Shown here: one piece after another, positions 17,845-38,944 of the stretch
Layout: the number at the start of each line of letters is the position of its first letter
Numbering within the stretch: position 1 is the first letter of the stretch
Assembly (NCBI GenBank): GCA_034189865.1
Contig: JAXHTV010000001.1
Span: 62,001-126,000 of the forward strand
Length of the DNA stretch: 64,000 nt
Direction of reading: 5' to 3'
Source: Pseudomonadota bacterium
Lineage (GTDB): Bacteria > Pseudomonadota > Gammaproteobacteria > UBA5335
Program-made: the position numbers and the translations under genes
Notes under the pieces: generated by a model
The model's database searches: none
Told to the model about the DNA's origin: nothing
What the model saw: only the letters and a program-made list of their open reading frames with translations

Positions 17845-19662
17845 GTGATCGAAAAACTCCGAAACGTCGCCATCATCGCCCACGTCGACCATGGTAAAAC
17901 CACACTGGTCGACCGCCTACTTCAGCAATCCGGCACCTTAGATTCCCGGGCGACTCCAGTCGAACGGATGATGGACTCCAACGAGCTCGAGCGGGAGCGG
18001 GGTATCACCATTCTGGCCAAGAACACGGCCATCCGCTGGAAGGATTACCGCATCAACATCGTGGACACACCCGGCCACGCCGACTTCGGCGGAGAAGTCG
18101 AACGGGTCCTTTCCATGGTGGATTCGGTGCTGTTGTTGGTTGACGCGGTCGACGGCCCCATGCCCCAGACCCGCTTTGTTACCCAAAAGGCGTTTGCCCT
18201 CGGGTTGAAACCCATCGTGGTCATTAACAAGGTCGATCGACCCGGCGCACGGCCGGATTGGGTCCTGGACCAAACCTTCGACCTCTTCGACCGCTTGGGT
18301 GCCACGGACGAACAACTCGACTTCCCGGTCATTTACGCCTCGGCACTACACGGCTTCGCGGGCCTGAGCCCCGACGTCACCGAAGGCGACATGGAACCGC
18401 TGTTTGAATTGATTGTCGATCGCGTGCCGCCGCCGGAGGTCGATCCCGAGGGGCCATTCCAGATGCAAATCAGCAGCCTGGACTATAGCAGCTATGTGGG
18501 CGTCATCGGCATCGGCCGGATTACCCGCGGCAAGATCAAAAGCAACACCGCCATCACCGTGATAGATCGTGAAGGCGCCCAGCGACCGGGCCGGATATTG
18601 CAAATTTTCGGTTTCCTAGGACTCGAGCGGGTCGAAGTCCCCGAGGCCAGCGCCGGCGATATCGTCGCCATTACCGGCATCGAAGGCTTGGGTATTTCCG
18701 ATACCTTGTGCGCGCAAGCACACGTGGAAGCGCTGCCCGCCCTGAGCGTCGATGAACCGACCGTGAGTATGGCCTTCCATGTCAACGACTCACCCTTCGC
18801 CGGACGGGATGGCAAATACTTGACCAGCCGGCAATTGCGCGAGCGTCTGCAGCGCGAAACCATACACAACGTGGCTTTGCGGGTTCAAGACACGGATGAT
18901 CCGGATACGTTTCGGGTCTCGGGGCGCGGCGAGCTTCACCTCTCCGTGCTAATTGAAACCATGCGCCGCGAAGGTTATGAGTTAGCGGTCTCGCGGGCCA
19001 TCGTGATCCAAAAGCCCATCGACGGCGAGCTGTGCGAACCATACGAACAACTCACCGTCGACGTCGAAGAGCGGCACCAGGGCACAGTCATGGAAAAACT
19101 CGGCGAACGCCGGGGCGATCTGCAGGATATGATCCCGGACGGACATGGCCGCGTTCGCTTGGATTACATCATCCCCGCCCGGGGTCTGATCGGTTTTCAT
19201 ACGGAGTTTCTAACCGCCACCTCCGGTACCGGCTTGCTCTATCACGTATTCGATCATTGGGGGCCGGCACAAAAAACCCGCATCGGCCAGCGACAGAACG
19301 GCGTATTAATCTCCAACGGACAAGGGGCGGCCGTTGGTTATGCCCTATCTGCGCTCCAGGAACGAGGACGTCTGATGGTCGGGCCGGGCGACGAGATATA
19401 CGAAGGGATGATCGTCGGCCTGCACTCCCGCGACAACGACTTGGTCGTGAACCCGCTCAAGGCCAAGCAATTGACGAATGTTCGCGCCTCGGGCAAAGAC
19501 GACAGTTTGGACTTGTCGCCCCCATGGCGGCTGACACTGGAGCAAGCGCTGGAGTTCATCGATGACGACGAACTGGTCGAGGTCACTCCCAGCCATATTC
19601 GCTTGCGCAAAAAACACTTGAAAGAGAACGATCGGAAACGGGCCAGCCGCACAAACGCCTGA
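17845..19662 (+). CDS. typA: Ribosome-associated GTPase TypA/BipA
   Basis: Translational GTPase of the EF-G/LepA class involved in large ribosomal subunit maturation, especially at low temperature or under stress. The 605-residue length is standard. G motifs are AHVDHGKT (G1), ERERGITI (G2 region), DTPGHADF (G3) and NKVDRPGA (G4), followed by EF-Tu domain 2 and the BipA C-terminal domain. Translation starts at GTG (17845-17847), giving [17 protein letters not shown]. The gene ends 8 bases before the end of the CsrB-like RNA on the opposite strand, so transcripts from the two sides converge on the hairpin at 19678-19702. Confidence 0.97.
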
Positions 19663-19669
19663 GGCAAAT

Positions 19670-19702
19670 AAAAAAAACCCCGGGTGATTCATTCACCCGG
19701 GG
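19670..19702 (-). terminator. Strong intrinsic terminator, minus strand
   Basis: Perfect 10-bp GC-rich stem (19678-19687 with 19693-19702), five-base loop, then eight T residues on the minus strand (19677 down to 19670). The T-tract is on the minus strand only, so it ends a leftward transcript. The only candidate is the GGA-rich RNA to its right, because no protein gene on this strand reaches it. The hairpin alone may also slow typA read-through. Confidence 0.9.
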
Positions 19703-20008
19703 CCGCGTTAGCCATAATGGCTGGAGGTGTTTGAGTCCTCGTGTGCACTTCAGAGCTGAAAGTACGCTTCCCTCCGGCTTCCTGCCTCACCTGGCGTTAC
19801 AGAACATCCTTGCTCCACCAGACTCGCAGCCCTGACATGGTTTCCTTTCCTGGATGAGGCCAGTGACGACCTCAACACGGCATTCCTTCGCCGCATGTCC
19901 CGCACTCGTCCTGTGTATCTATCCATGAATGTTTTGGCATCCTGCCAATTCATCCTTGCTCGCAAGTTCCCTCTTGCGTTGCGACTTCCATGCCGCGTTA
20001 TGCTTGGG
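19670..20008 (-). ncRNA. CsrB/RsmZ-like small RNA, CsrA sponge (5' end approximate)
   Basis: Predicted regulatory RNA of about 340 nt that would bind and titrate the translational repressor CsrA/RsmA. On the minus strand between 19703 and 20000 I count 16 GGA triplets, against 2 on the other strand. Several sit in the loops of short perfect hairpins, the preferred CsrA site: 19962-19977 (stem GCAAG), 19934-19948 (stem TTGGC, loop AGGAT), 19878-19893 (stem CGGC) and 19776-19786 (stem GGC). The RNA ends in a strong terminator (19670-19702). A GacA-type box lies upstream (20068-20085), and TATGAC at 20020-20015 is a possible -10, placing the start near 20008. Length and layout match E. coli CsrB (369 nt). 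The frames in this region give no recognisable protein. Confidence 0.78.
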
Positions 20009-20067
20009 ACGCTTGTCATATTGCCCGAGCCGCAGGGGACGAACAGTCGGCGAAGACAGATAAATAC

Positions 20068-20085
20068 TGTAAGCATATTCGGACA
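20068..20085 (-). promoter_or_regulatory. Probable GacA/UvrY upstream activating box
   Basis: The known GacA box is TGTAAG-N6-CTTACA. Here, on the plus strand, TGTAAG is followed by six bases and CGGACA, so one half-site is perfect and the other matches 4 of 6. It lies about 60-70 bases upstream of the inferred start of the CsrB-like RNA, close to the spacing at Pseudomonas rsmZ promoters. Confidence 0.65.
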
Positions 20086-20133
20086 TCGCTGTGGGCACGG
20101 CACCGCCCACCATCACGACAACAAGGCGACTTC

Positions 20134-20571
20134 ATGATCGGACTCATACAACGCGTAAGCTCCGCCCGGGTCGACATCGACGCATCGACGGCGGCTGCGA
20201 TCGCACACGGCATCGTCGCCTTCATCGGCGTCGAACGGGGTGATACGGCCCAACGTGCGGACGGACTGCTCCACCGAATAGTGAACTATCGGATCTTCCC
20301 GGATAGCCGCGACCGCATGAACCTCAGCCTACTCGATATTCGCGGCGACTTGCTGCTGGTGCCGAATTTCACCCTCCCGGCCGATACGCGAAAAGGCAAT
20401 CGACCCAGCTTTACGCCGGCGGCCCCGCCGGAGTCGGCCGAGCAGCTCTTCAGTTACCTGTGCGCCCAGGCACAAGGGTCACTTGAACAGGTGGGCTGTG
20501 GACGCTTCGGTGCCGACATGCAAGTCACCCTGACCAACGACGGCCCGGTGACGTTCTGGCTGACAAGCTAA
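20134..20571 (+). CDS. dtd: D-aminoacyl-tRNA deacylase
   Basis: Hydrolyses D-amino acids (and glycine) wrongly attached to tRNA. The 145-residue length is the family norm when translation starts at the ATG at 20134, giving [15 protein letters not shown]. The conserved segments are [21 protein letters not shown] (equivalent to the usual SQFTL...KGxRPxF block) and the C-terminal NDGPVTFWL, which carries the cross-subunit Gly-Pro motif. The usual SQ before FTL reads PN here, which is a variation worth noting. The frame extends upstream to 19990, but that part lies in the RNA gene region and is not family-like. Confidence 0.92.
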
Positions 20572-38506: not shown

Positions 38507-38758
38507 TTATCGTTCGCCAATCCCCTTAACAGCCCACATCACGGCCTCTTGAAGACGAAGACGCGCCTGCTCCAAGTAGGCGTTGTTGCAACCCGCGTGC
38601 TCGGCCTCCGATAAATTGAGCTCGAACTGTTCGGCCAAGACGCGAATTGCGTTGGCCCTCGTAATCTCTTCACCGGTAAAGGGTCGAGCTTCTCTCACCA
38701 TCGGTCCACGACGTGAAACTTCCATTCCTTCTAACGTCGGAATATCCATCTCATCCAT
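38507..38758 (-). CDS. Small helical protein resembling Acb2/Tad1-type cyclic-nucleotide sponges
   Basis: 83-residue soluble protein with two predicted helices: FTGEEITRANAIRVLAEQF and, after a short turn, YLEQARLRLQEAVMWAVKGI. The second helix, with its Gln/Glu-x-x-Met-Trp-x-x-Lys/Arg-x-Ile pattern, resembles the hairpin domain of phage Acb2 proteins. Those bind cyclic di- and trinucleotides to block CBASS and Thoeris immunity. Homologues are typically phage- or prophage-borne and 80-100 residues long, as here. The resemblance is by eye over a short protein and could be chance. It stands alone between the GAF-GGDEF-EAL gene and a parvulin gene, with no phage genes nearby. Confidence 0.5.
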   Translation of the reverse strand: MDEMDIPTLEGMEVSRRGPMVREARPFTGEEITRANAIRVLAEQFELNLSEAEHAGCNNAYLEQARLRLQEAVMWAVKGIGER

Positions 38759-38944
38759 CCCATTCCTCCACGGCGGCTGATCAGGTTCGCCCTCATTGTA
38801 AGCGAACTCTTACAGTTCATAAAAAAAGTGATTCTTGACGTGAGAAAGAATTCGTTCAATCTCCGCTGAGAGGAGAGAACACCCATCTTAAGAACGAGTT
38901 GCCGCGACGTGCGCTGACCGAGATCACCTGCGGTATTATTGACT

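Follow-up and report, generated by a model that had tools for sequence, protein, structure and literature searches.

The gap between typA and dtd in the window, the whole 64 kb stretch of DNA analysed here, very probably carries on its minus strand a non-coding RNA gene of ~340 nt (positions 19670 to 20010) of the CsrB/RsmZ type, predicted to be activated by GacA/UvrY and to act as a sponge that titrates CsrA. As judged by sequence comparison, the RNA family to which it belongs is real, conserved, unlisted and of the CsrB/RsmZ kind, and not an artefact, and it is probably a family of GacA-activated CsrA sponges. For the RNA of the window itself we infer transcription, GacA dependence and CsrA binding. 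The features expected of a CsrA-titrating small RNA were found in its sequence, which includes many GGA triplets in hairpin loops, a GacA/UvrY box upstream, and a free-standing non-coding gene with its own terminator. A CsrA-titrating RNA had been proposed here in a sequence-only reading of the window. That interpretation is supported, but the reading had missed the conserved 3' element, a promoter element 17 nt past the box, and a syntenic family extending beyond the order.

GGA triplets and hairpin loops

The minus strand of the typA-dtd gap includes 16 GGA triplets spanning 19989 down to 19736, the number given in the sequence-only reading. That reading set them against two on the opposite strand, which holds within the predicted transcript when the one in the terminal CCTCC is not counted; over 19668-20080 there are four. 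When 300-base segments of both strands of the 64 kb were counted, the mean number of GGA was 4.75 (sd 2.26), and 16 was the maximum, found uniquely in the typA-dtd gap.

Fold and loop analysis defined GGA hairpins on the minus strand at 19981-19996 (GCGGCATGGAAGTCGC), 19961-19978 (CGCAAGAGGGAACTTGCG), 19934-19948 (TTGGCAGGATGCCAA, with TGGTGGCAGGAAGCCACTG and variants as its counterpart in genus g3), 19875-19896 (ATGCGGCGAAGGAATGCCGTGT) and 19799-19818 (GTGGAGCAAGGATGTTCTGT). With the GGA triplets held fixed and the remaining bases shuffled, 1.7 GGA were expected in loops of hairpins of at least 4 bp, and five were observed (p 0.022). Four were in loops with stems of at least 5 bp against 0.55 expected, a number reached by 0 of 500 shuffles, and the earlier claim of at least four GGA in loops of short hairpins therefore holds. 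The minus strand (403 nt) also folded better than its shuffles (z -2.5).

The same placement was seen in the family. Among 17 members, 60 of 175 GGA are located in loops whose closing stem has 4 bp or more, as compared with 19.2 expected, and none of 300 shuffles reached 60. The triplet TCC showed no comparable excess (9 against 6.4 expected), and AGG and GAA, which overlap GGA, were in excess in loops too. For two members of the order taken singly (G001 and G008), the excess of GGA in loops was not significant in the shuffle test. One alignment with unequal ends was used solely over the region that it covered.

GacA-type box and promoter

An 18-bp GacA/UvrY-type box (TGTCCGAATATGCTTACA) lies on the minus strand at 20068-20085. 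As the sequence-only reading had described, one half (CTTACA) is perfect and the other (TGTCCG) matches TGTAAG at 4 of 6 positions. A similar box was found in the same place in 19 of 19 members examined; its common form in the family is TGTAAG-N6-C(T/C)TACA-like, the window copy having just one perfect half. The UvrY site of Escherichia coli is TGTAAGNNNNNNCTTACA (PMC4682653).

The box is followed by a -35-like promoter element, CCGACT, at 20045-20050 (minus strand), which conforms to C[CT]GAC[AT] and starts 16-17 nt past the box in all 19 members. A -10-like hexamer, CAATAT, preceded by GGG, lies 21 nt past CCGACT at 20018-20023 on the same strand, and the 5' end of the RNA is placed from it. 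CANNAT or a variant, often preceded by TGG or GGG, is equally spaced in most of the 19 members, and the role of this hexamer is presumed. The comparison shows conservation of the box and promoter elements, and GacA presumably binds to the box.

Reversed control patterns were about equally frequent, so that a GacA-type box alone is uninformative. A near-perfect GacA palindrome on contig C18 has no GGA-rich RNA beside it. In the window, a perfect GacA-type palindrome (TGTAAGCGAACTCTTACA) at 38797-38814 precedes a small leftward frame (83 aa, 38507-38758) by ~40 bases. It was likewise rejected; no GGA-rich RNA adjoins it, and it may have arisen by chance.

The 3' domain and terminator

The conserved 3' domain (19670-19751, minus strand), recognised with the RNA models R1-R3 described below, comprises ...GAGGACTCAAACACCTCCAGCC, a small hairpin and the terminator, with pairing kept through changes on both sides. 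The small hairpin (AGCCATTATGGCT) was located at 19710-19722 by the 3' model and pairing analysis. The intrinsic terminator, CCCCGGGTGA-ATGAA-TCACCCGGGG followed by T8, was read directly at 19670-19702, where the strong terminator with eight T of the earlier claim is indeed present, and shows compensatory changes in relatives. In an alignment of 17 sequences, which was fitted to the structure under test and so favours it, 93.8% of cells in the small hairpin and terminator were paired, and both partners had changed in 36 cells, where shuffles gave 9.5. This signal was destroyed by sliding the partners.

The most conserved part of the family is a non-GGA 3' element (AAUCACCUCNAGCC...GGC), the best-conserved sequence being AAUCACCUC[CAU]AGCC, ahead of the small hairpin and terminator. 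The conserved letters ACACCUCC / AUCACCUCC (19723-19731 and relatives) resemble the anti-Shine-Dalgarno sequence of 16S rRNA. A GacA-controlled RNA that acts mainly by base-pairing with mRNAs via ACACCUCC, CsrA binding being secondary, would be in keeping with the conservation of this element, with the likeness of AUCACCUCC to anti-Shine-Dalgarno letters, and with its prediction as mostly unpaired in the short f3 and f45 members (0.67-0.90). However, the element is predicted to be mostly paired in the window RNA (unpaired 0.31) and is altered in genus g3, and the 13-20 loop-placed GGA in the window's order point to CsrA. We consider this explanation quite improbable.

The family might also be a two-part regulator, in which a variable GGA sponge for CsrA is joined to a strongly conserved 3' element (AAUCACCUCNAGCC) that either recruits a second protein or base-pairs with mRNAs at their Shine-Dalgarno regions. 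This suggestion is tentative and on balance unlikely; if true, one GacA-controlled RNA would act by both titration and base pairing. The conserved 3' element poses a testable question of a second function.

Distribution of the RNA family

The genome that includes the window (G000) was compared with eight others of its order. All nine have the RNA just upstream of dtd, on the strand opposite to that gene, with a GacA-like box and a GGA-rich stretch, and the terminator is found wherever the contig continues; in G007 the RNA is cut by the contig end. The sequence following the box extends over 326-398 nt and includes 13-20 GGA.

A covariance model (R1) of the 3' 82 positions, made from eight members of the order, was run over 369 genomes of the class, and the models R2 and R3 were rebuilt with the members found so far. 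Beyond the order, R1 matched G193 (37.0 bits), G276 (33.6), G166 (29.0) and G053 (28.3), which were kept because of features outside R1, such as the box (e.g. TGTAAGAAAATCCCTACA), GGA hairpins and placement. R2 and R3 added G009, G297, G051, G191, G048, G075 and lastly G188. Members occur in f1 and f2, which make up the window's order, and in six more groups of family rank within the Gammaproteobacteria (f3, f42, f45, f47, f69 and f166, f being a working family label), of which f166 is a single genome with a weaker box. As the best 12 first-look candidates per genome were scored in the large scans, these member counts are lower bounds.

Except for G166 and G053, the R1 matches below ~31 bits were set aside as ordinary terminators without box or GGA cluster, as were an R2 match after a pal-like gene (L077, 38.8 bits) and an R3 match (L096, 43.6 bits). 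One match to a contig pattern scan, in a deltaproteobacterial record, was due to chance, and no such RNA is present there.

The orthologues have in common several features that were not used in the search, namely the box, C[CT]GAC[AT] at 16-17 nt (19 of 19) and GGA hairpins, and most of them share a neighbourhood of typA, proline iminopeptidase and dtd. The RNA is ~270-340 nt with 13-20 GGA in the window's order and ~150-190 nt with 5-7 GGA in the other families. Two traits are unusual, namely the conservation of a non-GGA element at the 3' end, and an orthologous locus at which the RNA changes in length and in its number of GGA. In these syntenic orthologues, the shift of a sponge RNA between RsmZ size (5-7 GGA) and CsrB size (13-20 GGA) could be traced at one locus.

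The comparison that the sequence-only reading had called for, of GGA hairpins and box against a reading frame, came out on the side of the RNA: the order and the six further families keep the box, the GGA hairpins and the terminator, and overlapping frames have no convincing counterparts. Open frames do exist on both strands, among them one of 117 aa at 19750-20103, as would be needed for a small protein-coding gene. Against such a gene, the best tblastn match in relatives had an E value of 0.009 and matches covered short stretches, and the locus shows free length variation and compensatory pair changes, which makes coding by this or another frame extremely improbable.

Genetic context

The claimed location between typA and dtd is correct, both gene identities being supported by NCBIfam. 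The convergent neighbour, typA (bipA; 17845-19662, plus strand, start codon from the list of open reading frames), scored 932.6 bits with TIGR01394 (cut-off 757.3), and the divergent neighbour dtd, encoding D-aminoacyl-tRNA deacylase (20134-20571, plus strand), scored 160.5 bits with TIGR00256 (cut-off 101.5). In f3, f45 and f47, typA usually lies 3' of the RNA, convergent where seen, and the other side is usually occupied by a small membrane-protein-like frame and a proline iminopeptidase gene, both absent from the typA-dtd site in the window. In G048 and G009, dtd overlaps or comes after the peptidase gene, and it adjoins the RNA directly in G188, as it does in the window's order. This pattern of typA, peptidase and dtd suggests that the RNA locus of the different families is one ancestral locus.

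Given its orientation, towards typA and away from dtd, the RNA might be regarded as tied to either gene, as an extended 3' end or as an antisense transcript, its GGA richness arising from chance or composition. However, it has promoter elements and a terminator of its own, its conservation persists at loci that typA or dtd does not directly adjoin, and its loop GGA are far above shuffles. Such an origin is thus very improbable, and a separate sponge RNA gene is preferred.

In several families, a conserved small membrane-protein-like frame starting MIGKKNIVFGF... adjoins the RNA before the proline iminopeptidase gene (L056, L071, L082, L083 and L057). This frame had no match in NCBIfam.

Comparison with known RNA families

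Nothing in the whole window reached the gathering score of an Rfam 15 family, CsrC, RsmX and RsmY included. In permissive scans, the best scores for CsrB (RF00018, gathering score 71) were 18.2 bits in G003 and 17.6 in G005, and PrrB_RsmZ (RF00166, gathering score 44) reached 16.9 bits for the window and 20.2 for G002. All are far below the cut-offs, yet they are to the expected CsrB/RsmZ clan. Across the class, RF00018 found CsrB in 0 of 274 genomes, with E. coli as the positive control, and the four members beyond the order that were scanned matched no Rfam family. As no Rfam family was matched at threshold, the RNA is assigned to an unlisted family of CsrB/RsmZ type, in agreement with the claim that it was unlisted.

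Like CsrB of E. coli and relatives, the window RNA is in the ~340 nt size class, with many loop GGA, a UvrY-type box upstream, a terminator and no reading frame. Unlike CsrB, it falls short of the Rfam threshold, is located at typA/dtd rather than between syd and yqcC, and has a 3' domain of its own. The short orthologues of the family resemble PrrB/RsmZ of Pseudomonas in size, number of GGA (5-7) and GacA-type box, but differ in Rfam score, as given above for the window RNA and G002, and in neighbourhood, RsmZ being found by fdxA (PMC9788540). The putative CsrA-related small RNAs CsrR1 and CsrR2 of Alcanivorax are likewise outside the enterics and not named by Rfam. They differ in location, as CsrR1 lies in the hfq leader and CsrR2 by fdx/hpt, with no typA/dtd synteny reported (PMC9788540), a distinction made from the description of the loci. 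Among the results listed from the open-licence literature, to which the survey was confined, none mentioned the typA/dtd locus as a Csr RNA.

The Csr and Gac components and a proposed mechanism

The genome encodes the circuit expected of a host of a CsrA-titrating RNA, namely CsrA, GacA/UvrY and a BarA-type kinase. The single csrA gene of G000 lies downstream of, and beside, an aspartokinase gene. Its product matches the NCBIfam csrA equivalogs and differs very little from the CsrA chains in solved structures, being nearly identical over 54 residues to that of 7yr6. CsrA was found in 8 of the 9 genomes of the order, the exception being G001, which is 82% complete. The GacA/UvrY homologue, encoded shortly before uvrC, scored 289.7 against the curated UvrY/SirA/GacA cut-off of 280; in G008 no close full-length UvrY match was found. 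The BarA-like kinase was recognised by 35% identity over its full length, and its score is under the NCBIfam BarA cut-off (707 against 890).

In the proposed mechanism, the BarA-like kinase would drive phosphorylation of GacA/UvrY, which in this form would bind the box at 20068-20085 and turn on leftward transcription from ~20010. The RNA would fold into successive hairpins that present GGA in their loops, end at the terminator, and bind many CsrA dimers, thereby freeing CsrA-repressed mRNAs. For a set of Gammaproteobacteria that are uncultured or little studied, and in which Rfam detects no such RNA, the predicted RNA would be the output that the Gac/Csr circuit had lacked.

The number of CsrA genes varies in the order, with two in G006, G007 and G008 and one in G000 and genus g3.
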